This document shows positions 11,981 to 35,353 of a DNA stretch of 35,353 nucleotides, one piece after another. Position numbers and translations under genes: made by a program. The notes under the pieces were generated by a model that saw only the letters and a list, made by a program, of their open reading frames with translations, made no database searches and was not told the DNA's origin. The stretch comes from Clostridiales bacterium (lineage in GTDB: Bacteria > Bacillota > Clostridia > Christensenellales > DTU072), in the NCBI GenBank assembly GCA_012799455.1, contig JAAZLE010000098.1:1-35353 (forward strand). The letters run 5' to 3'. Positions within the stretch are counted from its first letter, which is position 1, and every line of letters starts with the position of its first letter.

Positions 11981-12601
11981 TTAATAATCATCATGGTCGT
12001 CTTCTTCATCTTCATCATCTAAATCTTCATCGTCGTCTAGTATGAAATCATCATCTTCCTCTTCTTCATCATTAGACTCGTCCGAGAATTCATCCTCCTC
12101 TTCTTCGTCAAAAAAGAAATCTTCTTCTGCATCAAACAACGCTTCTTCTTCACTAAAGTCTTCGTCTTCATCATCAAACGGTACATCATCTAAATCATCT
12201 AGATCTCTATAATCGTCAATATCTTCATCTAAATCATCGTCGAGACCTTCCAAAGAATCAGTATCGTCCATATCCTCATCATCTTCTAAATCCTCATCAT
12301 CTTCTAAATCCTCATCGTCTTCTAAATCCTCATCGTCTTCTAACATAAAATCATCTTCTTCGTCATCTTCATATGAGGACTTTTTCGCTTTCTTTTTGCT
12401 TTTTGCCGCAAGTTCAAAAAGACAGAACTCACAATACTTCTCTCCAGGTACTACATAGTTTTTCTCGCATCGAGGACATAATTCTTCTTCTAGGTCTTTA
12501 TCTATTATTCCTTCTAATTCGGCTATGCAAACAGAGCACATTTCCTCTTCTTCTAAAATATAATTGACTTCACATCTTGGACATTTTCTATACTTAGCCA
12601 T
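11981..12601 (-). CDS. double zinc-ribbon protein with a long acidic tail
   Basis: Two matching zinc ribbons are visible. C7, C10, C22 and C25 form one, and C42, C45, C57 and C60 the other. Both follow CPRCExNY...CxxC with the same CX2C-X11-CX2C spacing, so one probably arose by duplication of the other. A lysine cluster (about 68-74, KKKAKK) follows. Residues 75-206 are almost entirely Asp and Glu with scattered hydrophobics, with one Arg and no Lys. There is no signal peptide, so the protein should be cytoplasmic. It has its own promoter (12688-12716), a good AAAGGAG site and its own terminator (11921-11950), so it is a single-gene unit. I do not recognise a named family. Binding of nucleic acid or basic proteins is possible. 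The tail contains an 18-bp repeat array at 12272-12343. Confidence 0.8.
   Translation of the reverse strand: MAKYRKCPRCEVNYILEEEEMCSVCIAELEGIIDKDLEEELCPRCEKNYVVPGEKYCEFCLFELAAKSKKKAKKSSYEDDEEDDFMLEDDEDLEDDEDLEDDEDLEDDEDMDDTDSLEGLDDDLDEDIDDYRDLDDLDDVPFDDEDEDFSEEEALFDAEEDFFFDEEEEDEFSDESNDEEEEDDDFILDDDEDLDDEDEEDDHDDY
12272..12343 (-). repeat. 18-bp in-frame repeat, four copies
   Basis: Four consecutive 18-bp units in the acidic tail each encode LEDDED. They differ only by GAC/GAT at one codon. Such arrays can gain or lose units by slippage without shifting frame, so tail length may vary between strains. Confidence 0.85.
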
Positions 12602-16377: not shown

Positions 16378-19300
16378 TTATTGTAAATATTCAATATTTT
16401 TCGCATTTTCGCCAAACGTGTTTTGTATAGTAATGTCATTACGAAGTGAAATAACTGTCTGGATTGCGGTATAGTTTGCCCAGAATATATTATCAAATAT
16501 GCTAGCCGTTCCTTTTTTGTTAGATAATTTCAATGCTATGCTCTTACAGTGTCTAAACTCGGTATTACTAACCATAACATTTCCGGCCATTACGCTTATG
16601 CCTATGATTGAACGATGTATTTTACTATTCATTATATCAACAGACCCACCAGTTAATTGTAGTCCTACGCTGAAGCCAAGTATGCTAGTTTCATCAACAT
16701 AAACTATACCCTTAAATCCTGGTGCAGTCCTTACTACGCTAGAGTTTTGAGTTGTCGTACTTCCCTCTTGTTGCATCAAGGCACTATCTACAAACTCACT
16801 TCTTCTGATAGTTATACTAGAAACATTCTCTTTCACGTTTATCAGCCCTACGCTCGCTATAGCACTCATCTTTACTATATCAACAAGCAGTGCGCCACGC
16901 TCTACCGTAATCTTATCAAAGGTAACTACTATCTCATCTTCTTCTTCACTTACATTGTATGAACCAACTATAGACACTGCTGCATTCTTTGTAAGAGTTA
17001 TTTCACCGTAGTGCCCTGCCCTTAAATAGAACCTAACCGTATCTCCATCCCTAACAAGTGAAAGCGCATCATCTAATTCTGCTTTATCTTCTATTACCCT
17101 TGTGTTAGGCAGTGTAGCAGTTATTCTATATATGCCTTCAATTTCTCCAACAATTATATAGTTCCCATGAGATATCGAAGCTAAGTTTTCTATTCGTAAT
17201 GGATAGGTATCAACCATATGTTTTCTAGTAAGTGTCCCACCGGTCCACGATACTATAATATTTCCAAACAACCCGATATCATCTGTCCCCTGCAGACCAG
17301 GAAGAGAGTTATTATTTGCATCTACAACCGTTAATGCCGACCTTAAGTCTTTTAACTCTTCTAGGTAGTCGCTGGATAGTTCTCCTATACGGAACATAAT
17401 CTCTTTCCTAAATATAGTTATAGTACGATCTATTAAGTAGTTATTTGTTACACTATCTTCTGAGTCTATATTGACACTTGGATAGTTTATACCACCATCA
17501 ATATATACTGAAACCCTATACTGACCCGCATTACGTAATTTTGCTCCAGCAGGCAGATAAGTCTCGGTAGCTTCGTCATAATATCTGTATGTAACTATAA
17601 TATCACCCGGAAGTGTACCTGTTGAAGAATATGGCAGTCCTATTATCGGCACATCAAACCCTTGACCTGTGTACTGGAATTCCGTATCAATCGCATACGA
17701 AACATTTTTGCGCGTTATCTTGATAATAACCGAATATGTAGTACCTTCTTCTATGTCGTAATTTCTTTGGTCATTGTTAAACCTTATAGTCATAATATAT
17801 TCACCAGCGTCTATAGGCCTTATGTTTGTGTTATAGTCTGGGGCCGTATTAGGAATATATCTTGCAAACGATAACTGATATATCACTCCGTCTGGGATGC
17901 CGTGTACAAGAGGAATTTGCTCGTTACCATTATATTCAAACTCTGCAAACCCATCTGCTGGAATAGGCTCATTATTGCCCTTGTGGAAATAAATCTCATC
18001 TCTTCTGACTTGAGCCTTTGTTATGTTCATCCTAAATACCACTTCGCCATAAATGTTGTAATCATCATTGTTAGCAACTAAAACTTTAAACCTATAGCCA
18101 AGATTTCCTTCAGGCACATTAATTGGTTGTGTGCGCATCCAGGTTGCGCCATCGTCTATGCTGTACTGTAATGTATAACCTTCTAGCGCACCGTATGTTC
18201 CATCTTCTCTTAAAAAGCTAGCAAATGTAACATACTCAGTAAAGTCCAGAACCTTACCCGTATAAACTCTATCTAAAAATTGTCTATTTATGCTTATATC
18301 AGCAGCAACTATCTGCTTTTTCTGTACAATAATTGGTAAACTCCCTTCTATAATTGCGCCATAAGCATTTTTGAAGTAGCATTTAGCAAAATATGTCCCT
18401 GCTTTATTTGTATTGACCTCGTCTAGTACCCATAATGGAGTCACGCCATTTCTAAGCTTTGGAAGTTCGCTTGCTCTTATTACTTTCCCAAGTGGCACCG
18501 TGTATGATGGAACATTAAATTCAGCAGCACTAACTTCTATCGATGTATATACGTATTTTGATAAGTCTACTTCAAACACTATTGTTAGTTTCTTAGAATC
18601 CTCTTCTACCGCTGTATCACTACCAAATAATCTTGGGTTATCGGTAAACGATAGGAACGAGTAGGAGCACTCGACGAAAGCCTTCATCGCCAGAATGTCG
18701 TATCTGACTTTTTCCACATCAATATAATCGCCATCTTCTGTAATAATTACGCGCTTTGGAATCAATGTGGCTTCAGGACCTAGAGCATAAACATTTGATC
18801 TACTTACGCTAACAGCTATTTTATCTAGTATAAAGTTACCACGCTTGTATGTTGTAACCGTAGTAGGCCCAGATGGAGTTTCAATTGTAGAGTTAGCAAG
18901 AATTATGGAGTAAAGCTTCGGATCGATGACAACTATGTTAAATAGTATGTTTTCGTCATCAATAGTACCTAGTGTTCCTGGTACATTCGTGTACATTCCT
19001 CCAATTTCCGGATCTGAAATTGCTATGTTCGTGCTTATACCAGCAAGAGCATTTGTGGAGAACGTAAGCGGAGCTGATGCAATCTCGCTATTCCCCATAT
19101 ATTCAAATCTATAATACAGTTTCTTAGGTAATTGATCCCTTAGTTCTTTACCTTTTAGCACATATATAGTACCGCCATTTAAAGGCTGTGTAGTTTGCTG
19201 ACCGTTAGGAAGAGTAATGCTGGTTTCAATGTCTCTTGCCCTGATACTAAACTGGATGGAAACTTTTGCACCATATGCTCTAAACGATGCTGTTAACACC

Positions 19301-22300
19301 ATAAAATTAGGTCCTATACGCCCAGAAATTACATCTGATCTATTTAAATAATTAGTATCATATTCCCAATTGATAGGAGATTCCTCGCTGCCATATCTTT
19401 CAGTTTGGGCCTGCCCTTTGAAAGTAACATCTACAACCAGCGGGAATTTAATATTATATGGGTCAATATACCACTCTTCGTGAGCTTTTTGGTATAGTAC
19501 CGTAACACCATCTTTTTGCCCCTCTACTTCCGTAGATACTGAGGTGCTTGTCACTCGCCTATCTGTTGTTTCTACGCTCAAGTCTAAATAGTCACCTATC
19601 CATAGTTCGTTAAGCACGTATGGATGTGCACCATCTGCATTTTTACGTACCACTCTCAGGAATTCGGAAGACATAATACCACCTTCGGTATGAACTTCAG
19701 CTACATATCCCCTGATATTGCTTATTATTGGATTTGTTTGAGTAGCAGGCTCTAGCGCCACGTCTCTACTGAATAACCAAGAAACGTTTTTCATCTTTAC
19801 AGATAAACCAAGTTTTGCTATAGCTTCATTGTATATAGCATCTGTCATGCTGGTGTTAACCGCACGCCCATAAAACTCTAATTCTATAGTACTAGGCATT
19901 TTGTACAAGCTTTGTGCGGTTGTTGTGGTTGTATCTCTATACCTTAAGTTAGTAACAATACTAGAATCCGCCACAAATAGGTTAGGGTTAGTCGGATCTA
20001 ACAATGTATGATATGTTCTTGTAGAAGGAATAGAACTGCCTACCGCAGCCGCTCTTTCCATTAGGAGATATCTACCACCATATGCGGCTAGCTTTGAATA
20101 CCCGGGGGTGGTCGTGTAGATGTTTTTCACTATCCTATTTAAATAATAAACTTTAGCTACAAAAGGCGTGCTCTGGCCAGTAGTATCTGAAATTAGTAAA
20201 TCTACCTGATTTATAACACCGCCGCCCATTTTAACATTATATATACTACCCGCGCTCTTGGTATCTTTATCTACCCAATTGATGTCTACTTGACCTATAT
20301 TGATAATCTCAGTGGGGTTATGCGGGTTTTTACCTCGCGCTAATGCCTTCGTTGGGAAGACTGGATTAATTGGGTCTATTATCAAATACACATTACCTGT
20401 AGAATTGTAACCATCATTATCACCAAAACCAAAGCTGATTTCCTCTACAGCTATTTGTAGATAATCTAGGTTATATATTGCTTCTGTTGTTATTCTGTTA
20501 TTCGCTGCAGACTTAAATGTGTTTCTCAAAACAACAGACGTAACAGTACTAGAGTCAGGATTAGCTCCAGCCCAATCAATGACCCTTCTGAGCTTATCTT
20601 GGTTATGCCCTATTCTTGAATCTAAAGGATAAAATACTACAGGGGCTTGTTCAACTTGCGATCCACTTTGCCCTGCTACAAATTTCACATCAAACTGGTC
20701 TTCTATTGATAGACCTGAGTATCTATTAAACTCAATTACATAGTTGGTTATGCCTAAAATACTTACAAAATCCCAAAGATCTGCTTTTATTTGTAAACTT
20801 ACTTGCTCACCAGTAGTTCTTGATTCATCTTCTCCGTAACCAATATGCCCCACTAAATCATAAGCAAAACCACCTGTTACTAGGATGTCATCATTTACTA
20901 AAAGCACACCATCTTTATACCACTTTATATCAGGGATAACTGGGCCACGATTACCGCCACTAGCATACTCTTTACATAGAATATCGGATGCGTTAGCGTT
21001 AAAATCAAAGTGAGAAATCTTCGCACCAGTACTTCCTGGCAGACTAGAAATAGTAGTTTTAAGCGACTCTAATCCCGATACCACACTTCCGTTTGTTAGG
21101 TTTTGGTTACAGAATATGCTATTTACCAACGAGGAAGGAACATCAGATACTAGTCCTTCAAACGGATTAGGATAACCATCATGCCCAGAGAATGTAAAGA
21201 CACCATTATTGTCAGTTATTGCGCTAGGTAAGACAGTTATACTCCTATCGAGTACTATTACCGCCAAAATATAATATTGCGCAGCATCTCCTTCCCCTAT
21301 TCCCTTTAGCTGTCCATAGAATAAAAATGTTCCGCCAGCATGTATTTCTTCATTTATATCAAGTTTCCACTCTCCCTCCACATTAACGAATGGATACGCA
21401 CTGTCTGCTGGGGTAAGCGCAATATTTAAATTTACTTTTTCCTCATATATCTTGAATTTGAAAGCTGCTACTTTAGGTAGTTTAAATGTTGATGCATCAT
21501 ATGGATCTATGTAATACTTGCCCATTACATCAAAGGATTCGTAACTTCCTGAAACAGTATTAATCGCTCTGCTCGTATAATAAACGCTTTCTAACTCTCT
21601 GTTTAAAAACTCTATCTTGAACGTTAAGGAATCATTACCATCGGGTAATATTACCTTAATTTCTAATTGAGCATTACGCCCGCCATAATCTGCACCAAGA
21701 GTATGACCAAACTTATCATATGTAATTTGAGTTATAGGCTCAAAGGTTCCCGTTACTACATTTTTGATATTGAACACAGTATTGCTATCTGCAGCAAAAG
21801 TGTATATGGCCTGATCGGGTGAAAACGCACCAAACCTTACTGTCATATCTTTGGGTAAGATAAGTATGCCATTTTCGTCTTCTGGTCTTTCATACGGGTC
21901 TATAACTGCATTTGTGCCAGTTAAGTTAATCTTAGTATTGTATACAGTTCCGCCACTGTCTAGAGGATTTACCTTAACCCTCAACTCTATTGTCTGCTTC
22001 TCGCCGTTATACCCAGTAACTGTACTAGTAGCAAACAACACGCCGTTTAAGCCCATATAAGTAATGTTTTCAACTAGTTTTTGAGGATCAAACTGATTAG
22101 GATTATCTGCCTTTGCAAAGCCTTCTGCAGGAATCCAGCCAATACCGTCTAAAGTAAACTCTTGTCTTCCTTCCGCCAGGAATGCAGTGGTAATATTGGG
22201 TATTATCACTGTACTTAACCTTGTTTCTAGTCCTTGTACGGGATAAAACTCATAAACGTTTTTAATATGCAACCAACCATCTTTAATGTTGTATATGCCC

Positions 22301-25300
22301 GTACCTTCAGTTTTATAATGTGTTTTGTTAATATCTTTTTTGCGGAAGTTAATTCTTCTATTAATTTCTTCGCCATCTTGTAATGTGGTTTTTAATGAAA
22401 TGTAACTACCATCTACAAAACGGAAGAATTCATACGGGACATTCGAAACTCTATCGCCTATTTCTATAACTCTTTGGTTATTGTGTGAAAAAGATGCTTC
22501 CATTGCGTACCAAGCAAGACCTTGATATTCGACAGTGCCACTCTTTTCATATTCTACTGTAAAAGTTTCTGAAATTACATATCCATCAATACCGCCATAT
22601 AAAGGGACACCGTTTTCATCAAATGTTTCCACATTTTCTGTATAAGTAGTAGCTAAAATAGCATCTCTCACAGCAGTTACGCTAACAGTAAAACTTTGTT
22701 CACAACTACCTACTCCCAGTTTTGTAACAGTGAAAATTACTGTTGCTAAATTGTCGGAGATTCCGACAGACGGGTCTTCATAAAATTCACTTGCATCTTT
22801 TTTGAAAAACAGTATGTCATCAAAGTCTTCTCTTAACTCAAACTGCATGGGGTAAACTCCTGGAATATCTCCTTCAAATCCTACAGCTATTCTGCTAAAT
22901 AAGTATTTGATGTATTGCGATGGAGTAACAATGCCAGTTTTGACCTCGTTATTTTCGTTTGTGTACACACCTCTTAAGGCATAGGGCTTATTGAGGACAA
23001 TATCAATTTTGTTTTGACCTTCATAGGTAATTACATTGGTTTCAGGATCAGTAACTAAACTCTTTACTTCGCTTGTTATATCTACTGGTACCACTCCGTA
23101 CATATCTGAGAGAGCAAACTCTCTGTCTAAGTTTGGATAATCTATATCTCTTATAATCCTATCTGTCACCCTAAACGCCATAGAAACAGATTGTTCTTGT
23201 ACAGTCCCCGGGGATATTCTGCCTCTTAACTGAATAAAGTTTCCTAAATAACTAGCCTCGTTATATTCATCAATGCTACCAAGAGGATTTTTAAGCACAG
23301 AAATAAGCTCATTTAGGTTTTCCCATTCGATACTAATTCCTTCTTCCATGTAAGTGCCATCTTCACCCTCTTGAGAAGGCACAAACGCTACACCTACAGT
23401 TAAGTCCGCAGCTGTTAAAACATCGATTAGTTCACTACTTAAAACCGAGTAAGTATCAACCGCAACAAAAGGCATGGCTACTGTGGCTCCTTCTGGAGTT
23501 TCAAAGTCTTCTAATATAACTTGCTCTGGGGTCATACCACCAGATACGCCATATATGATATTAGGTACTACTACTTTTCTATCAAAGTATAGGTTTAATG
23601 GGATAATCTGATCCAGCATGCCGCTAGAGGTGTCTGCTGAAAGCTTGGTGTATACCGTATGTTTTCCACCTTCATAAGGATAAATATAGGTTAATGCATC
23701 AGAACCGTCTTCTGTCTTCCAGAATGCTGTATATTTAGCATCTTCAATATCACTATCTTCGCCAAACTCTAATATAAATGAAGTTGGTAAAATCAGAGGT
23801 GCATATGGATTAAGGTTCCTAATATTATAATGTATTGATCCATCCTCTCTTACTTCCTCTTCTACAGTGGTAAACGGATTATCATTTTCATCCAACATAT
23901 GAACTCTCTTATATTCACCACTCTTATTGTGAATTATCATTGTCACAATTTGGAAGTTTTCATCATTGCCTACTCGCCCATATACAGCAAAGAATTCTTC
24001 TTGAGCATAAACATTCAATATGTTTCCTTCAGCATCAATTATATTGTCTGGCGTCCCATCTAGTGATGTAAGCCATGTTACTTCATAACCCAGTCTTTGC
24101 ATCCTGTTTCTATATACAGCGTCAATCCAGATTTTAGATGGGAGTCTCTTGTTCGTAATCGCTTCACTATATGGGTCAAACTCAAAGTATGAGCCTATCG
24201 GTTTATCTTGGAAAAACGCGGCATTAGATACTTTTACTGCTTCTCGCCTAGTTACATCATGAATTATTTCACCATGTGTGTCGTATGAGATTTCTGTTAT
24301 AGCAAGCAAGCTGTCAGCCTGAGTTCCAATAATTCTCTTTGGGCATACAACTGTAATCTCAATATCTTGATATCCTACGTGGGTATCTCCAAATTTTGCA
24401 CGAGCTTTATTATCCCTGCCATCATTCAATGGATTTATCGCCTTATCCACAGCAACATTGTTTGCAACCTTATGATTCCAATCCAATATCCCAGGGAAAG
24501 TGCCATCAAATTTCGTAAGTTCATTTTCATTTACTGTGAAATCTTCGGGGAGGTTTCCTATAACTCTAAAATGACCACCTTCAAAATATACTCTCACTTC
24601 GTTAGCTGGTCTTGTTCTCGTAGCTTCGCGCGGTAAAACTGTTGTTATAGGTAACGTATACGTAACTTCATCTAATGCATCAATAGTATAATGCCCGTTT
24701 TCTTCATCGTTAATTTGAATATGAGAGACAATTTTTGTAAGCACAGTTACTTCAAGCCCTATCTCTAAACCTCCATACATGGCAGTAACAATGTATAAAC
24801 CGCCTCTGAAGTTTATCAAGCTTAAATCAAACCCCCAATCAAAATGTTCTAAGTATTCTTTTCTATATATATCGGGAGTAAGCCTGTTGTTAGAATAGAA
24901 TGTTAACTCCAATGTGTCCGCAGCAAGACCGTTTACACCATCTTCTCTGTATACAATGGGATTATATGTCCTTCCGCTAGCCGCAAGCTTAGCGCGCTTA
25001 ACTGCATAATCATACGGGTCTATCACTACCTTTGCAACAATAGGAATAGTATTGTTATAATAATCGCCTTCGGGAACCACAGGAACACAGTTTTGGACCT
25101 CAATCAATGCATCAAACCTAGTTTCACCAATACTCCCTTCTCCTATAATTATCGAATATGTTTGAGGTGGAAGTCCGCTATATACCTGTTTTATGTTTGC
25201 ATTATTATACGGGAATCCCTCTATTCTATATGGAAGTGATCCAATTCTTCCATTGTCATATATAACTTCAATAGTATCTGGCATCGGTACTACTGCGCCA

Positions 25301-27945
25301 GGATCAATAATCATGAAGGCATCTTTTAGATTAAGTACTTTATTAGTGCCATTTTCTCTATCTGTAAAGTACATAGCATATGCTACCTGCAACCCAAATA
25401 GTGATGTTGTTGGATTGTATGACGTTTTACCCGTTACCATCTTCACGGTCTCGCCAGTAAACGTTAAGAAGTACTGCTGCACTTTATCTCCCATTATGAC
25501 AGTTGCCTTCTCTACTAGCTTCGCTTCATACATTCCACTCCACATCTCTTCGCTTGGAATGTTTATAACTGGGCTATGATAACCATCTGGTGATTCAGTT
25601 ATTTCTGGCAAAGCAAAAGTGACTTTTAGATTCGCTGAACTCATCAGTCCCGAGACTCCAGTAATTCTCTTTAATGGGTCTATAGTAACTCTGTTTTCTA
25701 CGCGCGGGAACATCTCAATACAAATGCTTTCTCCATCTAAGCGCACCACAGATTCTTCTAATATTCGAGGGATATTGTTTACTAGATTGGTAAAGTCTAA
25801 AACATTTCCTGCTGTAGAAAGTTTATTTAAACCTTCCATAATCACAGATACTCGCATACGATATTTAGCATCTATCATCCTATTATCTACAAGGACATCT
25901 TTAGGAGATGACATATCAGTATTAATACGAACCAATACTTCTGTTCCCTTTGTTATAGCAAGGGTTACATATGTGTCATCAAGATAGGTAGCAATATGAC
26001 CCTTGATTCTTAATCCATTTCCAGTTCCAGGTGCTATTGTAAATGGAGTATTTTTGCCTGACACATCACCCATAAATATACCCATAAATGAGGATAGGTC
26101 TGCATTTTCAGATGCACTAGCGTTTTCTGTGGATATCAACGCATCTATTTCAACATTAATTATCTCTGGGGAGGCACTCTCTTCAAACTCTTGGAAGTAT
26201 GTAGGATTAATTTCATCTGGGAATGTTATGTCGAGACCCGCTTCAGGTACTTCCTGCGAAACTAAAGACAGAGTAAACAACACTTTGTTTCCGCTAACTG
26301 CCTGTAACATAAACTCGCCAGGCATCTCGGATAGAGCATGCTTATGTGTATTATATGAAACCTCCAGGTAGAGATTATCAAAAATCCCTAGTGCTAATAA
26401 AACTTCAGCTTGATCTGCAGTTATGCCAAAAACTTCAGTCATTTGTGATACTAGGGTTGCACTGCTATTTGAAGATAAGTTGGTCACCAACTCATCATCA
26501 ATCCTAAGTATTACCCTGTCCCCTTCGCTACGAATCTTACTTAATAAAACACTACTTGCCGACAGGCCTGTACCTTGAGTTCCAAACATATTTTGTAACG
26601 AAAACCCTTGGGTAAACATTGTCACGCCCTGGTTTATAATACCTTGCAGTATATTTGATATGTCTAGTGAGGTAACTTTTATTTTATCCAAACTTAAGGC
26701 CTCATAATCTACAGCACGCTTGACATACCGATTTAAAAACCCTGCACTGTCTAAGTATAGATATGCATTCTTGTAGTAAGCTGCTATCATTTGCTCATTG
26801 ACAGAATGGGCTTCACCGAGGTTTTCACTTTTATCTCTTATATCCAAAAGCAATTGATTGTTCGTATTGTTTGCCATATCAAGAACTAACTGCAAATCTG
26901 CTGGGAACTTTTCATTCAGGTCTGGAATTTCTAGATAGCCTTTAAAGTGCAAATGTCCTTGTTTACTTTCTAAATATGAATTTAAGCTAGTTTTTTCCTC
27001 ATTAGTTAATAGTTGCTGCCTTTCGTTATCAATTAAATACTTAATCTCTACACGATAATCATTGTTAACAGTGCCCCAAGGCTCCATACCCTCTTCATCA
27101 TCGTCAAATACTATCTCCATAGCATGAATAAAGTTTGTATCATCAGATAATGTTTCTATCGTGGCATTAAATCTTCTTAAGGTAAATCTTTCTACCTTAA
27201 ACGCACTTAATGTAGATAATTTAACACCTAACAGCAAATCTGTTATGGGGTCAAATTTTGCGCCAAATGGCACTAATGAGTTTTGAATACCATCGTTTAC
27301 TACATCTTTAGATCTGTCGAGATCCACATTTATTATATTGAAACTTTCTATATTGTCTTCCACATTGGCTTTACTAATGTTTTCGCTTTCTGCGTACAAC
27401 TTTACCATATTTAAAGTTTCTAAAACTTCTTCCGAAGTTAATGTTTCACCCAAATCGAAGTTCTTCATTATATCAAAGAAAACTCTAAATAAACTTGTTC
27501 CACCAAATCCCTCAATCTTATTCAACTTTTCGCCGATTCTATAATAAAGGTCAGAATTGCCATAGTATACAGCTACTTTATCCTGATGGTTAAAATGATC
27601 GAATACTTTTAAATAAATCTCCGAGTCTTGCCTTCTCTCATTATCGTAGTTTGCCTGATAAACAACATCTAGATTAATATCTCTAACCTCTACATTAAAT
27701 TGTGAGAACACATATGTTACTTGTTCTGCCCGCCTGTCTGAACTTAAATGTTGATTCAAAGCAGCACTGCCTCCAGCAATTTTACTAAACACCTCGTTTT
27801 TATCCAGAGTTATGCGTTTAATAGTATCGCCGCCTCCAGCGTTGTTATCCTCCCTATTTTTGGGTGCGCAAGAACTGATAACAAGCGCCAGTGCAGTTAT
27901 CATAAGAATAACAAGTAAAATTGTAGTCAGTTTTTTAAATTTCAT
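16378..27945 (-). CDS. giant (3855-residue) surface lipoprotein: DPY modules, MBG-like domains, beta-helix
   Basis: A lipoprotein signal ends I23-S24-S25-C26, so the N-terminus should be lipid-anchored on the outer membrane face. Residues 27 to about 870 are a non-repetitive region with YYKNAYLYLDSAG-like strands. From about 880 to 2900 come diverged modules marked by [IV]-[DN]-P-[YFL], a nearby LP and a V-x-F strand. Clear cases lie near residues 882, 979, 1259, 1380, 2018, 2147, 2524, 2651 and 2829. Four MBG-like domains follow, near 3208, 3308, 3415 and 3513, with DAGEY and NAGQYRVSV strands. Residues 3615-3855 form a right-handed beta-helix (SVDIMNSKIH, NVMVSNTEF). Cysteines are few. The ribosome site is weak (GAAAGAG). 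It lies 77 bp after the upstream giant gene with no terminator between. A scaffold or adhesin role is inferred. Confidence 0.85.
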   Translation of the reverse strand: MKFKKLTTILLVILMITALALVISSCAPKNREDNNAGGGDTIKRITLDKNEVFSKIAGGSAALNQHLSSDRRAEQVTYVFSQFNVEVRDINLDVVYQANYDNERRQDSEIYLKVFDHFNHQDKVAVYYGNSDLYYRIGEKLNKIEGFGGTSLFRVFFDIMKNFDLGETLTSEEVLETLNMVKLYAESENISKANVEDNIESFNIINVDLDRSKDVVNDGIQNSLVPFGAKFDPITDLLLGVKLSTLSAFKVERFTLRRFNATIETLSDDTNFIHAMEIVFDDDEEGMEPWGTVNNDYRVEIKYLIDNERQQLLTNEEKTSLNSYLESKQGHLHFKGYLEIPDLNEKFPADLQLVLDMANNTNNQLLLDIRDKSENLGEAHSVNEQMIAAYYKNAYLYLDSAGFLNRYVKRAVDYEALSLDKIKVTSLDISNILQGIINQGVTMFTQGFSLQNMFGTQGTGLSASSVLLSKIRSEGDRVILRIDDELVTNLSSNSSATLVSQMTEVFGITADQAEVLLALGIFDNLYLEVSYNTHKHALSEMPGEFMLQAVSGNKVLFTLSLVSQEVPEAGLDITFPDEINPTYFQEFEESASPEIINVEIDALISTENASASENADLSSFMGIFMGDVSGKNTPFTIAPGTGNGLRIKGHIATYLDDTYVTLAITKGTEVLVRINTDMSSPKDVLVDNRMIDAKYRMRVSVIMEGLNKLSTAGNVLDFTNLVNNIPRILEESVVRLDGESICIEMFPRVENRVTIDPLKRITGVSGLMSSANLKVTFALPEITESPDGYHSPVINIPSEEMWSGMYEAKLVEKATVIMGDKVQQYFLTFTGETVKMVTGKTSYNPTTSLFGLQVAYAMYFTDRENGTNKVLNLKDAFMIIDPGAVVPMPDTIEVIYDNGRIGSLPYRIEGFPYNNANIKQVYSGLPPQTYSIIIGEGSIGETRFDALIEVQNCVPVVPEGDYYNNTIPIVAKVVIDPYDYAVKRAKLAASGRTYNPIVYREDGVNGLAADTLELTFYSNNRLTPDIYRKEYLEHFDWGFDLSLINFRGGLYIVTAMYGGLEIGLEVTVLTKIVSHIQINDEENGHYTIDALDEVTYTLPITTVLPREATRTRPANEVRVYFEGGHFRVIGNLPEDFTVNENELTKFDGTFPGILDWNHKVANNVAVDKAINPLNDGRDNKARAKFGDTHVGYQDIEITVVCPKRIIGTQADSLLAITEISYDTHGEIIHDVTRREAVKVSNAAFFQDKPIGSYFEFDPYSEAITNKRLPSKIWIDAVYRNRMQRLGYEVTWLTSLDGTPDNIIDAEGNILNVYAQEEFFAVYGRVGNDENFQIVTMIIHNKSGEYKRVHMLDENDNPFTTVEEEVREDGSIHYNIRNLNPYAPLILPTSFILEFGEDSDIEDAKYTAFWKTEDGSDALTYIYPYEGGKHTVYTKLSADTSSGMLDQIIPLNLYFDRKVVVPNIIYGVSGGMTPEQVILEDFETPEGATVAMPFVAVDTYSVLSSELIDVLTAADLTVGVAFVPSQEGEDGTYMEEGISIEWENLNELISVLKNPLGSIDEYNEASYLGNFIQLRGRISPGTVQEQSVSMAFRVTDRIIRDIDYPNLDREFALSDMYGVVPVDITSEVKSLVTDPETNVITYEGQNKIDIVLNKPYALRGVYTNENNEVKTGIVTPSQYIKYLFSRIAVGFEGDIPGVYPMQFELREDFDDILFFKKDASEFYEDPSVGISDNLATVIFTVTKLGVGSCEQSFTVSVTAVRDAILATTYTENVETFDENGVPLYGGIDGYVISETFTVEYEKSGTVEYQGLAWYAMEASFSHNNQRVIEIGDRVSNVPYEFFRFVDGSYISLKTTLQDGEEINRRINFRKKDINKTHYKTEGTGIYNIKDGWLHIKNVYEFYPVQGLETRLSTVIIPNITTAFLAEGRQEFTLDGIGWIPAEGFAKADNPNQFDPQKLVENITYMGLNGVLFATSTVTGYNGEKQTIELRVKVNPLDSGGTVYNTKINLTGTNAVIDPYERPEDENGILILPKDMTVRFGAFSPDQAIYTFAADSNTVFNIKNVVTGTFEPITQITYDKFGHTLGADYGGRNAQLEIKVILPDGNDSLTFKIEFLNRELESVYYTSRAINTVSGSYESFDVMGKYYIDPYDASTFKLPKVAAFKFKIYEEKVNLNIALTPADSAYPFVNVEGEWKLDINEEIHAGGTFLFYGQLKGIGEGDAAQYYILAVIVLDRSITVLPSAITDNNGVFTFSGHDGYPNPFEGLVSDVPSSLVNSIFCNQNLTNGSVVSGLESLKTTISSLPGSTGAKISHFDFNANASDILCKEYASGGNRGPVIPDIKWYKDGVLLVNDDILVTGGFAYDLVGHIGYGEDESRTTGEQVSLQIKADLWDFVSILGITNYVIEFNRYSGLSIEDQFDVKFVAGQSGSQVEQAPVVFYPLDSRIGHNQDKLRRVIDWAGANPDSSTVTSVVLRNTFKSAANNRITTEAIYNLDYLQIAVEEISFGFGDNDGYNSTGNVYLIIDPINPVFPTKALARGKNPHNPTEIINIGQVDINWVDKDTKSAGSIYNVKMGGGVINQVDLLISDTTGQSTPFVAKVYYLNRIVKNIYTTTPGYSKLAAYGGRYLLMERAAAVGSSIPSTRTYHTLLDPTNPNLFVADSSIVTNLRYRDTTTTTAQSLYKMPSTIELEFYGRAVNTSMTDAIYNEAIAKLGLSVKMKNVSWLFSRDVALEPATQTNPIISNIRGYVAEVHTEGGIMSSEFLRVVRKNADGAHPYVLNELWIGDYLDLSVETTDRRVTSTSVSTEVEGQKDGVTVLYQKAHEEWYIDPYNIKFPLVVDVTFKGQAQTERYGSEESPINWEYDTNYLNRSDVISGRIGPNFMVLTASFRAYGAKVSIQFSIRARDIETSITLPNGQQTTQPLNGGTIYVLKGKELRDQLPKKLYYRFEYMGNSEIASAPLTFSTNALAGISTNIAISDPEIGGMYTNVPGTLGTIDDENILFNIVVIDPKLYSIILANSTIETPSGPTTVTTYKRGNFILDKIAVSVSRSNVYALGPEATLIPKRVIITEDGDYIDVEKVRYDILAMKAFVECSYSFLSFTDNPRLFGSDTAVEEDSKKLTIVFEVDLSKYVYTSIEVSAAEFNVPSYTVPLGKVIRASELPKLRNGVTPLWVLDEVNTNKAGTYFAKCYFKNAYGAIIEGSLPIIVQKKQIVAADISINRQFLDRVYTGKVLDFTEYVTFASFLREDGTYGALEGYTLQYSIDDGATWMRTQPINVPEGNLGYRFKVLVANNDDYNIYGEVVFRMNITKAQVRRDEIYFHKGNNEPIPADGFAEFEYNGNEQIPLVHGIPDGVIYQLSFARYIPNTAPDYNTNIRPIDAGEYIMTIRFNNDQRNYDIEEGTTYSVIIKITRKNVSYAIDTEFQYTGQGFDVPIIGLPYSSTGTLPGDIIVTYRYYDEATETYLPAGAKLRNAGQYRVSVYIDGGINYPSVNIDSEDSVTNNYLIDRTITIFRKEIMFRIGELSSDYLEELKDLRSALTVVDANNNSLPGLQGTDDIGLFGNIIVSWTGGTLTRKHMVDTYPLRIENLASISHGNYIIVGEIEGIYRITATLPNTRVIEDKAELDDALSLVRDGDTVRFYLRAGHYGEITLTKNAAVSIVGSYNVSEEEDEIVVTFDKITVERGALLVDIVKMSAIASVGLINVKENVSSITIRRSEFVDSALMQQEGSTTTQNSSVVRTAPGFKGIVYVDETSILGFSVGLQLTGGSVDIMNSKIHRSIIGISVMAGNVMVSNTEFRHCKSIALKLSNKKGTASIFDNIFWANYTAIQTVISLRNDITIQNTFGENAKNIEYLQ

Positions 27946-28022
27946 CTCATTTCTCTTTCTTTCATCTATTAATGTTATTTCATTACGTTAGACATTTTTA
28001 TGTTATATCCTTTAAGCACTTC

Positions 28023-31000
28023 TTATGCCGAATGCTCTCTTGTTACGAATGGTGTAGTAGAATATATAGTACTTGGATGTGTTGGCTGTACGCTGGTCTT
28101 GTATATCCTTATTTCTTTAGCTGTTTGCCTACTTATTCCACCCTCAACAACCGCTTCGTTCCACGCGGTAACTTCGTATAAGTAGTTTTGGCCTTCATGT
28201 ACAACACTTGCAAGGTTTGTAAGTTCGGTCCTTAGTTCACTAGTATAGTATGTGCCATATGGATTCAATCCTTCTGCATAATCGTTTGCGCCGTATACTT
28301 TCTTCGGTGAACCCATCAATGTATTGCTACCTGCAGCCGTTATCTTCATTTCTGAGCCAGTCCTTGCGTCTAAGAAGAACAGTATTATGTTATACACTTC
28401 TGTGTACTCTACATTACCATCCTTAATTACTTTTACCGTTACTTTGAAGTGATCTAAGTAACCACCTATAGCTATATCTTCTGCAAACTTTAACTGCCCT
28501 TGAACTGCCGTATTCCACCATGTAACATGATATGTGTACACTCCAGCTGCAAATGGTTCGCCTTCATAGTTCCCTTGAATATTTGCCTCGGGCAGGATGA
28601 AGGTATACGGCTCGCCAGCAATGGCAGTCCCGCTCCTTGCAAAATTAATATCCAATGGATTAACTATGAACATTGTTTTTTGTTTGCCTTCAATGGCTAG
28701 CGGATCGGAAGATAACATGTCATACCTTGCGCTATCTATTCCCATTCCATATCCTAGATTCAAGCCAGTTATTTCATACTTTGAATTATATTGCCTTCTT
28801 ACAACACTTGTAGAGTATGATCTTCCTCTTATAGTCACTTTCCTACTGTACTGAATATGCATGTTGTTGTTAATAAGTACATTAGGATCCCATTCAGTAA
28901 CTGTATAATCTATAGTCTTGCCTTCAAGTTTGTAGTCTTTTATGGCGGTGTTTAAGATGTTATCAGTAACTGATACTCCATCCCTTTCTCTTGTTACTGT
29001 TTTAACCATGAGCGTTGTGTTATACGAATCTTCGTATGGATTAATTGTCCCTGTGTATGTAGTATTATTGTACTTAGTCTTAATAGCACCCCTATTTAAC
29101 ACGTTCATACTGGAATTATTGATGTAAGTTATCGGGGACATATCTAAAAAGACCATCATTATTCTAAATGCCCCTTGATAGACAAATCCAGTCTGTTGAT
29201 TTTCTACGCGTATAGTCACTGCCCAGCCTTTATACACCCCACCGCCTACATATTTATCTGGTATGGATATAGCTGGTGTTCCAGGCTGCCACCAAACTGC
29301 CGAGACTACCATGCCTTTGGAATTTAGGTCTACATTAGATTCTAGGTTATAATTACCTTTTGCCCGAATTGGTAAAACATAGCCCGTTCCAAAATATGGG
29401 TTCAAGGGATCTACTACATATATTGCCTCGTTGGTGCCACCATATCCGTACCCTAAATCCACTTGTGTTATGTTAAGTGTTTCAAATTGATAGTAAACAT
29501 CATAGGCTGGTGTCGTACGTATTACTGCTGCATTCCTGTTTGCAAGTGAGAATCTACCAACTGCATCTCCGCCTGTACTCATAGCGTTTCTTGCTCTTAT
29601 TAGAGTTCCCTCATCCCATTTAATCCTATATGGGTGATCGGCTGGATAGTAGTTTTCTGTGCCAGCTATCTTCACTGTAGTTGGATCTATGTCTTCAGGT
29701 ATAAATATTACATTTTTCGATACCGGATCTGACCCATCACGAACATTTTTAACCTTAAATACCACCTGATATGTCTGGTATGAAGATTTATTCGATATTT
29801 GAGAGAAGTAAAATCTTATATCTTGCATCATGCTTTGATAAGCTCCGCCTTGTAACCTTCTAATGGTATCAAACTCCCATGTGTCGATGTATAGTTTTAT
29901 GGTGACAGGTTGTCCTCTATCCCTATCATATATCCATCCTCTCACTAGAATATGGCCAGTGGGCGTTCCTGCTGCGATAATGTCTGAATCTGCAAAGTCC
30001 CAAATTACTGGAAGCCTTCTATCTTCAATTCCCGGATAATATCTATTATCTTCTACACTTGATGGTAAGTCGGTAGCCCTTCCTGCATATGGATCTTTCA
30101 TATGATATATTGCATTTGGGTTTTCATAGTGAGTATCTCCGGTTACGTTATAAAAGTCTTGAACACCTAGTTGTAAACTCCAATTTTCTAATATATATGG
30201 GAGTACGTTTACATATAACACTAAATCTTGATGGGGATAACCTGCAAACTCTTCTGCATTTGAAATAATGGCAGATGTAAGCCTGAAGTGTTTTTGCCCC
30301 TCAGGTTTTGCTGCTAGTACAGTTTCGTTAGTATCATACCTTACTTCATAATCCGCTGGTGTAGTCCATGTGGCTGGGTAATTTACAAGATCCGGTCCTT
30401 CTGCAAACTTAATTGTAACTCTAGACGGAATATCAACATGTTCAGAATATGGGTTTAAGGTAATGTTTTTATTATTATCGCTATCGCCAATATTTTCAAA
30501 ACTATACTTTGTAACAGTCTTATCATTAAAGTGTAAAATCAAATTAACAACCTGACCATCTAGCAGTGTTATCTTGAATCTTATATTTCTTCTGTCAGCA
30601 TCTAAACCATTTATTGACAAGGTATGCCCATCTAAATCATATGGAGCGGTAGTCTGCCTGACAGTTGCAACATGACCAGTTGTCGGATTGACTGGGAAAT
30701 ATTCAATATTTTGATACACAAACACTCTATCCCCACCATAATGCAAGTTAAGCACTCTAGATAGAGCTACGCTGCCAGCGTAGGATGCATTTTTATATGC
30801 GTCGAAGTTGATAATTATATCTCCAGCTGCATTTACCGGTTCGCTTATCAAAGACCTGCTATTGTTTTCGTCTTCATATATATACGATACACCCTGTACT
30901 AAACAAGGCAATACTCTCAACTTGAGCTGTACGATTTCTCTCATAACTCTGGCTTCAGCGATAACTATATCACTAGCTGTACCTAAATAGTTAATTGCGT

Positions 31001-34000
31001 CTAGTTCTGCAGGAGTTACTCGCATTGTCCATGTAACACCGCTAATTAATAAGTTCCCTGCTAACACTAGTCTTGAAGGAAGTCTCGATGGAATTATGTT
31101 CGTTCCAAGTGTATAGTGATCATATATGTTACTAATAGTAATAACGCCATTTTCAATATAATATCTTCCACTTCCTGCTTCCGAACTATAATCTGAACCA
31201 ATAGCTATGCCTACAGAGCTAAACCTCGCATACACCCTAGAACCGTCTGGTAGTAGTGTTGATAACCAAATTGCTCCACCGCCATATATACTAATTTCAG
31301 ATAGCCTGTCAATTTTATCAAATTCCTTAAGCTCTAACATCCAGTTTTCTTCGGGGTCAATACCAGGAACTGGAGACTTAACAACAGACCACCACCTTGG
31401 AACAGGTGCATCTGCTGTTGCAGAGTTTGCATAATACACCTCATGTCCATCAGCATATTTAACTTTAAATCCAAATTTTTCAGAAATTACATATCCATTG
31501 GGATACTTGGGACTATTGTCAGGATTATATGCCTGCAAGGTTGTGCCTAACTCCGAGCCATCCACTTTTATTATGTAACTATCTCTGTCTTCATCAATTA
31601 CCAACTGGTTTGCTGGTGTAAACTCCGTTACTATCATAGTGACTTTAAAGTCATCTGCGCCCTTGCCTTGACCTACATAAATATCCACACCTTGTCCAAG
31701 TGCTGTAATCATTTTTTGTAAATCAATGGTTCCATATAAAGGAAGGATGGCAGAAGTTGCCGCATCCCGTATTGTTATGATTTCGGGGTTATATGCGCTA
31801 TCTTGGAAACTTCCCTCGATCTCACTGAATAAATACATGAAATAGTCATAAACATTAACTTTAACGCTATCTACTAAAACATATGTGTTATCTGCATCTA
31901 TAACAAAACCTTCGCTATCAACTTTTAAATTGTTAACTAGTATGGTTCTATTTTCCTCATCAATAACCATATCAGAGACATTAGAGTCATATTTTACCAC
32001 GTCCAAACTAACTAAATCGTTTCTAGCTATGTCATATGTTAAATATATCTTTTGTTCAAATGATGGATCTAGGCCTAATGTTGCATATACATTTTCATGT
32101 AAGGTGTTTTGTTTCCAAGGAGCATTTTCTGACCATTTAACGGCATATTCTCTGATGGTGTCATCTTTAAATGTTACTTTTAGAAGTTTTGGAATATCAA
32201 ATCTCTTATACGTATCCACATTATATGTAAAGATTCTTTCTTGTAGGCTATCTCCTAAATGAGTATCATTAACCCCAGAAATCCTTTCTTCTGAAGTTAT
32301 AGTAAGCTCTTCACCTGCTGCATTTTTGAGAGTACTTCCGTCTGCATTATAAAACTCCACATCAGAAGCTACCGCTGATAAATTTCTGACTAGTAATTTT
32401 AATACTATATGATTATCGGTAGTTGCATCACCAATTGTAGTCTCTAAATAATACGCGCCAGGATTTTCACTTACACCCACTAAGTTATATCTACCATCGC
32501 CATCTATTGTGAAGTGAACATCAGTATCGCCATCGACATTTCTCCACTCTACACCATGTGCCGTTACTCTGCCTTCTTCATCATAACTGTTTGTATAATC
32601 ATATCTCTGATATATACCAGCCCCTTCATCTATGCTGAAAAATACTGCTATTTCCGTCGGAAGCACCCAAGTCGATGTATCAAATGGGTCTACATTGAAT
32701 ATACCAAGCAGCTCATCATCTATTGCGTATATTTCACCAGGTCTAATATAGTCTCTAATCTTTATATTCCTAACTTCGTAATTGTTTGCAAGATGGTTTT
32801 CTGTCTTTAGTTCTTTTACAAAGGTCTTTATCACCTTATCCGGAACATCCACATTCATTACAAGGTAAGGCACCTTAAACCAATCTTCATAAAACCATAC
32901 TTTATCAGCATCAAAATGACCACTAAAGTCTAAAAATGATGTTGTTTTATTATCTACAGCAGTTGTGAATGGCTTAGGATTCCCATTTGCATCGCGCTCA
33001 TTTACTAGTTTTACGTTATCAACTTTTTCATGTGCCCAAACTACTAAATTTTTTGCGTTAGGCCCTTTTAGCAAACTGCCAATATTGGGCATCCTGCTAG
33101 GTCTATCTTCAAGCCTTGGCTTGTTTGACAATATCGTGCTACCAAGTAAATCGCTAAAGTTTAAGGTGTACTCCTCTCCATTTAATCCTTCAAAATAGTA
33201 TGTTAAATTTGTTGGAATAAAATAAGTATTTGGGTACAAAACATCTACAGTATGAGTGTTATTTTTAATTTCTCCTGGCACTTTAAAATACTTAAACTCT
33301 CTCGGTAACACCCTTAGTCTTAGCGCAATTATCTGCCCATGGAAGTTGGTATATACATATGTGTAGTCATTGTCTGTAACAGCACCATAGTTATTAATCT
33401 GTTTTTCGCTGTATATGGTGTTTGCATCTTCAAAATCAAAAGACCATGCAAATGCTCTTAATTCATCTGGAGTTTCTTCTTCTGGGTTATTGGGATAAAT
33501 TTTTGTAAACTGAATACGTACATCATACTTGTCAAAGTACCACCTTACGAACCCAGCCGGGTCGTTTCTTAATCCGTTTATGTAATAGGCCTTGTATAAC
33601 AAATATGCAATAGGATCTACGTCTGCAGTCATCGCAATAGGTGCTTTGACCTGACCATTAGGCGTGTTTATGTTTATGTATGGCAAATCTGTTAACACTG
33701 TTCTGTTCAACACTTTAACCATGACGTTTTCTATATAAGTAGCCATCATCCCTTCTCCGATAACTACTTTAACTACGAACTTACCACCCTCTAGTGTTAA
33801 ATCTTCCCAAGTCATAGTATTGTACTGTATGCCTTCATAAATACTGCCATCCCAGTCAACTTCATTTAGTAATCCACCAGTTCTATCTATTCTATTGTAT
33901 GGATGCTTTGTGAAATCTAAACTTGTATTAACTACAATTCTTGCCGAACCAATTGCTGCTGCTATTGCAGGTATTTTGTCTTCTAACGATGCTGGTATTA

Positions 34001-35353
34001 TATACTCACTAGAGGAAGGGTTGTAATGCACTTCGTATACGGTGCCATCTGCTCCCGTACCACTTGCCATATACCAGCCCGTCACCAAGTCATATGTCAT
34101 GTTTTTGTTTGCATATCTTGCATCATATAGCCTGATAAGGGCAGTGTTTCCAAGCAGCCCTTCTACTACCCTTCTTTCAACCATTACATCATCTATCTCA
34201 ACTGTTTCCATAAGAGCATAGTCTGCACTGCTAACAATGTAATGCATTGCGCGGTAGTTATATAAGATATCAATGCCCTTATCATTTTCAACAATATAGT
34301 ATCCAGGTAATCTAAGCCCTAAATCATACAAGTGCCTTAGAGATTTTGGTCCAAAGGTAAATTCTTTGGGATAGACTACAGCATCTGGACCTAACTCTTC
34401 ATATGCTTTATCGAGTTTATACTCAGTGCCCAGCCCTACTATATACACTTTATTGTCTGAATCGTATAAAATTTCATATCCACGTTCTGAAACAACGGTA
34501 TAGTACTCGTTGTTTTTATCAAATATGGCATGCAGGTTGTAGTCAGCAGCATATGTATTTACCATGTTCATTTCGCCATAATATGCTCTTACAGAAGTTG
34601 GAATTGCCCCAAGCGGCTCCCAAGTATAGTAATCATCTACGAGCGTAGCTATTTTCTGTCTTCCTGTAGAATTACTTATGTACACCAGATAATCTCTAGT
34701 TACACCCATGAATTGCTTGTCAATTCTAGGTCTGTAGTATGCATTTCCTGCAATAACATCGATACTCTCTTGGTTATATAAGAATTTTAAATTTCTTGTT
34801 TCGATTCTTGTGCCAAAATCAAAGTATACTGGAATTGTTTCATGTAACTTAGTAGAGTATGGGCTTTCTCCAGTTATATTTGTCAGCTCGCCTACTGAAT
34901 ACATAGCAAAGTCTTTTTCTAACTGGTCAATGTTTTTAACCCTTTGTTTAAATCCGATTTGTATGGCCAAAGAGCCAATCATCTCATCAACACCAAAGAA
35001 CTGTTTTATCGTGTCATTAGACGTAGTTACCCTTATTACATCTGGCTCAAAAGTAGCCCAGCTATCTTCCATTAGTGCCTTGACAATGTCTGTCAACCCA
35101 AGCACTATGTCTCCCGACTCGTTTTCAAAGTCATAACCCATGTACTCGTAAAGTGAGGTGACAAATAAGTCCTCCCTGATTTTAAACTTAGGCAAGTGAT
35201 CAAAAATCTTGTAATCTAACCAAACATACCCTAGCTCCTCTAGAGGATGAGCAGTATTGAAACTAACATCGTTTGCGTAAAGTTCTAAAACCTCGGTTCT
35301 TACAGACCCCTCCATCATATATGCGCGACTACGGAAGGCACTTCTGCCCTTTC
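28023..35353 (-). CDS. giant DPY-module surface protein (5' end outside window)
   Basis: The frame is open to the right edge: eleven codons precede the first ATG (35318) with no stop and no ribosome site. The true start and any signal peptide therefore lie outside the window. Numbering from that ATG, 2431 residues are seen. The first 850 or so are beta-rich with short repeats such as EILYDSDNKVYIV and DILYNYRAMHYIV. From about 750 on, [IV]-[DN]-P-[YFL] modules recur, near residues 878, 1036 (diverged), 1508 (diverged), 1625, 1743, 1969, 2094, 2222 and 2353. Several close with LRVLP-type strands. Only one cysteine is seen. The protein stops within its last module and has no C-terminal anchor or LPxTG. 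It aligns colinearly with the middle of the next gene, a 3855-residue lipoprotein. Extracellular location is inferred. Confidence 0.8.
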   Translation of the reverse strand, partial: KGRSAFRSRAYMMEGSVRTEVLELYANDVSFNTAHPLEELGYVWLDYKIFDHLPKFKIREDLFVTSLYEYMGYDFENESGDIVLGLTDIVKALMEDSWATFEPDVIRVTTSNDTIKQFFGVDEMIGSLAIQIGFKQRVKNIDQLEKDFAMYSVGELTNITGESPYSTKLHETIPVYFDFGTRIETRNLKFLYNQESIDVIAGNAYYRPRIDKQFMGVTRDYLVYISNSTGRQKIATLVDDYYTWEPLGAIPTSVRAYYGEMNMVNTYAADYNLHAIFDKNNEYYTVVSERGYEILYDSDNKVYIVGLGTEYKLDKAYEELGPDAVVYPKEFTFGPKSLRHLYDLGLRLPGYYIVENDKGIDILYNYRAMHYIVSSADYALMETVEIDDVMVERRVVEGLLGNTALIRLYDARYANKNMTYDLVTGWYMASGTGADGTVYEVHYNPSSSEYIIPASLEDKIPAIAAAIGSARIVVNTSLDFTKHPYNRIDRTGGLLNEVDWDGSIYEGIQYNTMTWEDLTLEGGKFVVKVVIGEGMMATYIENVMVKVLNRTVLTDLPYININTPNGQVKAPIAMTADVDPIAYLLYKAYYINGLRNDPAGFVRWYFDKYDVRIQFTKIYPNNPEEETPDELRAFAWSFDFEDANTIYSEKQINNYGAVTDNDYTYVYTNFHGQIIALRLRVLPREFKYFKVPGEIKNNTHTVDVLYPNTYFIPTNLTYYFEGLNGEEYTLNFSDLLGSTILSNKPRLEDRPSRMPNIGSLLKGPNAKNLVVWAHEKVDNVKLVNERDANGNPKPFTTAVDNKTTSFLDFSGHFDADKVWFYEDWFKVPYLVMNVDVPDKVIKTFVKELKTENHLANNYEVRNIKIRDYIRPGEIYAIDDELLGIFNVDPFDTSTWVLPTEIAVFFSIDEGAGIYQRYDYTNSYDEEGRVTAHGVEWRNVDGDTDVHFTIDGDGRYNLVGVSENPGAYYLETTIGDATTDNHIVLKLLVRNLSAVASDVEFYNADGSTLKNAAGEELTITSEERISGVNDTHLGDSLQERIFTYNVDTYKRFDIPKLLKVTFKDDTIREYAVKWSENAPWKQNTLHENVYATLGLDPSFEQKIYLTYDIARNDLVSLDVVKYDSNVSDMVIDEENRTILVNNLKVDSEGFVIDADNTYVLVDSVKVNVYDYFMYLFSEIEGSFQDSAYNPEIITIRDAATSAILPLYGTIDLQKMITALGQGVDIYVGQGKGADDFKVTMIVTEFTPANQLVIDEDRDSYIIKVDGSELGTTLQAYNPDNSPKYPNGYVISEKFGFKVKYADGHEVYYANSATADAPVPRWWSVVKSPVPGIDPEENWMLELKEFDKIDRLSEISIYGGGAIWLSTLLPDGSRVYARFSSVGIAIGSDYSSEAGSGRYYIENGVITISNIYDHYTLGTNIIPSRLPSRLVLAGNLLISGVTWTMRVTPAELDAINYLGTASDIVIAEARVMREIVQLKLRVLPCLVQGVSYIYEDENNSRSLISEPVNAAGDIIINFDAYKNASYAGSVALSRVLNLHYGGDRVFVYQNIEYFPVNPTTGHVATVRQTTAPYDLDGHTLSINGLDADRRNIRFKITLLDGQVVNLILHFNDKTVTKYSFENIGDSDNNKNITLNPYSEHVDIPSRVTIKFAEGPDLVNYPATWTTPADYEVRYDTNETVLAAKPEGQKHFRLTSAIISNAEEFAGYPHQDLVLYVNVLPYILENWSLQLGVQDFYNVTGDTHYENPNAIYHMKDPYAGRATDLPSSVEDNRYYPGIEDRRLPVIWDFADSDIIAAGTPTGHILVRGWIYDRDRGQPVTIKLYIDTWEFDTIRRLQGGAYQSMMQDIRFYFSQISNKSSYQTYQVVFKVKNVRDGSDPVSKNVIFIPEDIDPTTVKIAGTENYYPADHPYRIKWDEGTLIRARNAMSTGGDAVGRFSLANRNAAVIRTTPAYDVYYQFETLNITQVDLGYGYGGTNEAIYVVDPLNPYFGTGYVLPIRAKGNYNLESNVDLNSKGMVVSAVWWQPGTPAISIPDKYVGGGVYKGWAVTIRVENQQTGFVYQGAFRIMMVFLDMSPITYINNSSMNVLNRGAIKTKYNNTTYTGTINPYEDSYNTTLMVKTVTRERDGVSVTDNILNTAIKDYKLEGKTIDYTVTEWDPNVLINNNMHIQYSRKVTIRGRSYSTSVVRRQYNSKYEITGLNLGYGMGIDSARYDMLSSDPLAIEGKQKTMFIVNPLDINFARSGTAIAGEPYTFILPEANIQGNYEGEPFAAGVYTYHVTWWNTAVQGQLKFAEDIAIGGYLDHFKVTVKVIKDGNVEYTEVYNIILFFLDARTGSEMKITAAGSNTLMGSPKKVYGANDYAEGLNPYGTYYTSELRTELTNLASVVHEGQNYLYEVTAWNEAVVEGGISRQTAKEIRIYKTSVQPTHPSTIYSTTPFVTREHSA

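Follow-up and report, generated by a model that had tools for sequence, protein, structure and literature searches.

Apart from the Big_4 domain treated below, two described systems lie closest to the locus analysed here. In Apilactobacillus kunkeei, a bacterium of a Gram-positive lineage with a 1.5 Mb genome, the consecutive genes Giant1-5 encode extracellular proteins of 3,000-8,000 residues (PMC12863079). The second is SiiE, a giant adhesin made of repetitive bacterial Ig domains that a Gram-negative bacterium exports by type 1 secretion (PMC5466336). Compared with Giant1-5 by description only, our locus likewise has neighbouring giant genes, probably elongated proteins and beta-solenoid domains, but the beta-solenoid of those proteins is N-terminal, whereas here a beta-helix is C-terminal, a lipid anchor is N-terminal and the array between them resembles Big_4 (PMC12863079). 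With SiiE it shares a long bacterial Ig-like array in a putative giant surface protein, a working likeness that claims no membership, but the proteins described here are Sec-type lipoproteins of a Clostridia lineage and not Gram-negative type 1 substrates (PMC5466336). Our literature search found no paper joining Christensenellales with giant proteins, and Clostridia and lipoproteins go unmentioned in the main text of a survey of proteins longer than 5,000 residues.

The stretch of DNA analysed (the window) is one whole contig of 35,353 b from a 1.62 Mb genome that is 94% complete. Positions 16378-35353, the range given in the preliminary description, are filled by two giant open reading frames, A then B, both on the minus strand (Table 1). 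Counted from its first ATG (28023-35318), A has 2431 residues, and its open frame extends to 35351. Its relatives carry about 740-760 additional N-terminal residues, the lipobox among them, which here would lie beyond the contig end; because the window is a whole contig and A is longer N-terminally in relatives, A is truncated. Residues 7-2069 of A align with residues 668-2613 of B over 1556 columns (E=2.4e-75), and this paralogy over most of their length makes the tandem pair an old gene duplication. The similarity is two-layered, with internal repeats in addition to whole-protein paralogy, and is not a matter of module repetition alone. Pfam and NCBIfam searches with both whole proteins gave no match above a cut-off: the best was Big_4 (PF07532) in A (P0002) at 16.3 bits, below the curated cut-off of 22.1 bits, and B (P0001) had no Big_4 match. 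A search for fn3 domains in the same genome found none.

Table 1. Features of the two giant genes of the window and of a third giant gene in the same genome
Feature	Position	Strand	Remarks
Giant lipoprotein A, partial	28023..35353	-	2442 aa open frame; open at contig end
Most conserved stretch of A	34539..35318	-	52-75% identity across genera; likeness to second-type repeat by eye only
A module a1 (TVDVLYPNTYFIP)	32943..33335	-	weak relation to Big_4
A module a2 (NVDPFDTSTWVLP)	32373..32810	-	unit profiles
A module a3 (VDTYKRFDIP)	31971..32318	-	unit closest to Big_4; 16.3-16.7 bits
A module a5 (ends LKLRVLPC)	30870..31181	-	unit profiles
A module a7 (TLNPYSEHVDIP)	30168..30530	-	E=4.2e-18 to module profile (self-inclusive)
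A module a8 (DPYAGRATDLP)	29832..30164	-	superposes on 7nit and on Big_4-bearing part of 8q2h
A internal duplication, first copy (VVDPLNPYF)	28833..29483	-	aa 1946-2162; E=7e-23 to next copy
A internal duplication, second copy (IVNPLDINF)	28107..28784	-	aa 2179-2404
Giant lipoprotein B	16378..27945	-	3855 aa; lies downstream of A, its paralogue, after a gap of 77 bp
B signal peptide with lipobox VISSC (C26)	27868..27945	-	Cys invariant in 12 aligned B relatives
B second-type repeat (YYxDGxLYIDL), copy 1	27535..27702	-	aa 82-137; third-giant-seeded HMM
B second-type repeat, copy 2	26629..27003	-	aa 315-439; third-giant-seeded HMM
B module b1 (IIDPGAVVPMP)	25063..25380	-	unit profiles
B module b4 (FDPYSEAITNKRLP)	23890..24327	-	unit profiles
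B module b5 (LNPYAPLILP)	23539..23916	-	unit profiles
B module b8 (IDPYERPEDENGILILP)	21598..21975	-	unit profiles
B module b9 (YIDPYDASTFKLP)	21220..21597	-	unit profiles
B unit b10 (IIDPINPVFP)	20044..20496	-	counterpart of A a9, E=2e-16 with a9
B module b12 (YIDPYNIKFP)	19177..19629	-	unit profiles
B tandem MBG-like domains	17146..18408 (approximate limits)	-	MBG_3 in relatives; internal repeat
B C-terminal right-handed beta-helix tip	16423..16701 (approximate limits)	-	Beta_helix in relatives
Third giant, one end	G000:C105, 1-20181	-	6727 aa ORF; lipobox MLFACS
Third giant, other end	G000:C106, 20825-29044	-	2739 aa ORF; found by unit profile

Both proteins repeat a module marked by the signature [IV][DN]P[YFL], which occurs seven times in B and four times in A, 11 in total, while composition shuffles give an expectation of 0.96; none of 1000 shuffles reached 11 and the maximum was 6, which rules out a chance origin of the motif. 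A longer form, [DN]P[YF]..LP, is found 10 times where 0.38 are expected, and in most units conservation at the D, P and LP positions exceeds that of the average column. The five examples quoted in the preliminary description are all where it placed them, and are among the DPY-bearing units a2, a7, b1, b5, b9 and b12. To compare units with each other, we built position-specific profiles for 17 of them, each from 13-30 species. At E<1e-3, 63 of 136 unit-unit pairs matched, mostly in register, against one of 102 unit-control pairs, so that the repeated unit claimed for both giants is indeed one homologous module. Neighbours b1 and b2, b3 and b2, b4 and b5, b8 and b9, and a7 and a8 share overlapping windows; discounting these five strong pairs leaves the conclusion unaffected, and non-overlapping pairs include a7 with b9 (1.6e-11), a2 with b9 (5.7e-11), b5 with b9 (1.5e-8) and a2 with b12 (6.5e-8). 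Units are 100-150 residues long in all. The closing strand, previously described as like LKLRVLPR, does not have that literal form but reads LRLRVLPR and LKLRVLPC. In the structural models described below, the DPY signature appears to lie inside the domain and not at its N-terminal border.

The preliminary description could not match the module to a named Big, MBG or cadherin family. When 123 units were scanned singly, however, Big_4 was the sole widely recurring Pfam family (13 units, best 2.1e-5); all other families shown matched one unit each, among them a single weak Cadherin-like match (E 0.059), although cadherin chains do occur among the fold matches. The profile of the 123 units matched only three PDB entries, 8q2h (1.1e-5), 7nit (0.0014) and 9fli (0.015), all of them enzymes, and the matched stretches are Big_4 domains (55.6, 54.2 and 49 bits). 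A class-wide scan with the unit profile matched a few distant genomes, and in the six examined all nine matched places are strong Big_4 domains. A profile of the DPY units only aligned with a profile of 23 Big_4 sequences over 59 columns (probability 93, E=3.4e-7) with a score of 39.7, against at most 12.4 for 40 column-shuffled Big_4 profiles, none of which matched. The two share the order and spacing of the core, namely LP, alternating V, F/Y, DG, W, G and a final strand. They differ in that the window units have 100-150 residues where Big_4 has 59 positions, score below the curated cut-off, enter with DPY, NPY or DTY, and carry long insertions between W and G; the units thus lack the compact form of about 59 positions that characterizes Big_4.

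A match to a Pfam Ig-like family, which the preliminary description had named as evidence against itself, is seen with pooled profiles, which match Big_4, but each unit of the window taken singly falls below the Pfam and NCBIfam cut-offs. For that reason we regard the DPY units as a diverged, insertion-bearing branch of Big_4, a Big_4-type module by sequence comparison that we do not file as a Pfam member, and the claim of an unnamed family is only partly supported. The relation is distant, as the DPY-only profile finds nothing significant in the PDB (best E 0.11). These last observations, with most single units under the Big_4 cut-offs, are what one would expect if the DPY module were an Ig-like family in its own right that had come to resemble Big_4 by convergence on the Ig fold. 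We consider this improbable and disfavour it on sequence grounds: the profile-profile match keeps the order LP, V, G, W, G, V at a significance that no shuffled control approached, Big_4 alone of the Ig-like families recurs among the 123 units, and an intermediate exists, since in one relative (G011) the place equivalent to a3 scores 24.4 bits, above the Big_4 cut-off.

An Ig-like fold, considered plausible from the start, agrees with structure prediction. AlphaFold models of A 840-1830 and A 1-720 (m71733183b5fc and m165c5e1c8c44, built with 18 and 28 relatives) have pLDDT values of 82 and 80 and predict tandem Ig-like sandwiches; the domain at A 222-540 appears in the model to be split by a long insertion. 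With a pTM of 0.47, the multi-module model does not determine how the domains are arranged relative to each other. For A 840-1830, Foldseek gave 106 matches in the PDB at E<1e-3, and those listed are mostly tandem Ig, cadherin and S-layer chains or other beta-sandwich proteins. Across the structure comparisons, Ig-like domains of the S-layer proteins EA1, Sap, SbsB and SbsC are among the matches. In VIA-align, a8 superposes on 7nit over 75 residues at 3.1 A with 24% identity and Z 4.9; Z values of only 4-5 are weak and denote a possible common arrangement on the tool's own scale.

The C-terminal region of B is of another kind. MBG_3 (PF18887) is recognized there in five of eight relatives (best 4.9e-5) and has no match among the DPY units, Beta_helix is recognized at the C-terminus in seven of eight (best 5.8e-8), and Pect-lyase_RHGA_epim matches once at the same end of B relatives.

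The genome (G000) also encodes a third giant lipoprotein, ~9,466 residues long, whose gene lies in two pieces on separate contigs (L137, L138, L095). Its two open reading frames align to residues 1-6756 and 6858-9610 of an intact relative of 9,630 residues in G005, and by this alignment they look like the two ends of one gene. The third giant and relatives elsewhere in the order share with A and B a plan of lipobox, N-terminal repeat and C-terminal Big_4-like array. The N-terminal, second-type repeat has the signature YYxDGxLYIDL and a length of 280-430 residues, and is present in at least 12 copies in G005 (L098/L099) and at least 15 in G103, a member of another family (L105-L107), followed by Big_4-like units. 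A hidden Markov model seeded on the third giant alone found the repeat in B and in some A sequences at the first pass and in nearly all A after iteration. Searches of Pfam, NCBIfam and the PDB with this repeat found no relative; for the N-terminus of B the best PDB match, 9xf5 (E 0.0099), covers the signal-peptide end only and was rejected. Within the order the repeat occurs in 50 of 200 genomes from six families, mostly in open frames that range from several thousand residues to 12,500. Among 291 genomes sampled class-wide it was found in our own genome only; the sample is nearly without other members of the six families and so speaks to absence elsewhere, not to frequency. An open frame of 24,525 residues at G015:C11 is an artefact, 24,000 of its residues being N stretches. 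In the G005 copy of the third giant (L098), two CarboxypepD_reg domains (68.9 bits) lie at about residues 5590-5750.

A signal peptide followed by a lipobox Cys, the mark of a bacterial lipoprotein, is seen directly in B and, for A, in relatives, the window's own copy being truncated. All 24 B sequences have the lipobox, as do 29 of 32 A sequences, and truncated sequences are among those without it. In relatives the gene order on one strand is a smaller lipoprotein of about 800-1070 aa, then A, then B, with A and B often directly adjacent, and the two are probably co-transcribed. The smaller lipoprotein, directly upstream of A in relatives (L022, L027, L029, L031, L047, L049, L050), belongs to no family in a Pfam search, and for some copies there is a weak match to the second-type repeat (best E 2e-4). 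At the whole-protein level A was found in 39 of 40 genomes of its own family and was missing from all 58 genomes of the order's other families. The same family includes G007, a genome 97% complete in which neither A nor the units nor the second-type repeat occur. Searches with the most conserved stretch of A retrieved uncultured Clostridia of sheep, goat and roe deer gut, and further relatives come from poultry (Candidatus Stercoripulliclostridium) and from records labelled Christensenellaceae, some of which are probably from termite guts; judging by their titles, other metagenome relatives look like sludge or digester organisms. Long antisense open reading frames in GC-rich relatives were set aside and taken as by-products of codon usage.

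We consider that A and B are probably tandem paralogous giant envelope lipoproteins, lipid-anchored stalks at the cell surface with a Big_4-type rod, B being tipped for binding. Both would be exported via the general secretory route and lipidated at the Cys following the signal peptide. One or two copies of the uncharacterised second-type repeat would sit next to the membrane, and from there Ig-like domains of Big_4 type, strongly diverged, would extend outward as a long rod, each module having an LP-V-V-F-G-W-G-V sandwich as its core, with the DPY entry and long insertions. The rod of B would end in the MBG-like domains and the right-handed beta-helix, a position suited to binding something outside the cell, most likely polysaccharide or the envelopes of adjacent cells. 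Surface location, rod shape and binding role are what we infer from this architecture, and the proteins may instead be embedded in the wall. Since the operon is kept family-wide across termite, ruminant and poultry guts and digesters, it most likely supplies a permanent component of the cell surface, serving as stalk or scaffold in adhesion or glycan capture, and not a host-specific virulence adhesin.

Other functions can be imagined for the same architecture. Big_4 normally accompanies glycoside hydrolases, and the solved Big_4 relatives are beta-galactosidases (8q2h and 7nit) and a galactanase; together with the Beta_helix and Pect-lyase_RHGA_epim matches at the end of B, this could mean that the giants are glycan-capture scaffolds with a carbohydrate-active or carbohydrate-binding tip that feeds sugar uptake. 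We think this unlikely, however, as Pfam and NCBIfam find no catalytic domain in A or B, the diverged DPY units show no known sugar site, and inspection of the window found no uptake genes directly adjoining A and B. The fold matches to EA1, Sap, SbsB and SbsC and the near-universal presence of A within its family would suit a structural lattice or wall-spanning, S-layer-like part of the envelope in place of an adhesin, but the matched fold is a very common one, and A and B have a lipid anchor instead of any SLH or other wall-anchoring domain recognizable by Pfam or NCBIfam, and we consider such a lattice quite unlikely.

It is similarly doubtful that the second-type repeats do the work, for example as a lipid- or glycolipid-binding groove at the membrane, while the Ig-like array serves as a spacer. 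The repeats adjoin the lipid anchor in all three giants, reach at least 12-15 copies in the third, and resemble the best conserved part of A, but neither Pfam nor NCBIfam nor the PDB yields a match to them, and the groove is guesswork. A broader proposal, which we advance with considerable reserve, is that the novelty lies in the protein class and not in the DPY module: lipid-anchored giants of 3,000 to more than 10,000 residues, found so far in just a few families of one order, in which a membrane-proximal array of the undescribed repeat (280-430 residues each, in as many as 15 copies or more) has a new fold or function, such as a lipid or glycolipid conduit, and carries a distal Big_4-like rod. 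Lipid-anchored surface stalks remain our preferred reading of A and B.

The DPY module is, then, hardly new, while the giant lipoprotein class and its second repeat appear undescribed; these look like the more interesting part of the finding, and the N-terminal repeat is an obvious candidate for structural study. A module that no library names could be traced to Big_4 once its relatives were pooled, and many giant surface proteins of gut Clostridia now called unknown may be readable likewise. A, B and the third giant together have about 16,500 residues, ~3% of a 1.6 Mb genome, and the class is conserved in lineages known here from metagenomes alone.

Two other genes of the window, both on the minus strand, deserve mention. 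The product of the first (5322-11621, P0003) is a secreted-type protein of 2099 residues, in which W/Y-rich units recur and a membrane segment lies at the C-terminus, and for which Pfam and NCBIfam gave no match at E<1. The second (11981-12601) encodes a 206-residue protein in which two CxxC zinc-ribbon-like pairs are followed by an extremely acidic Asp/Glu-rich tail.
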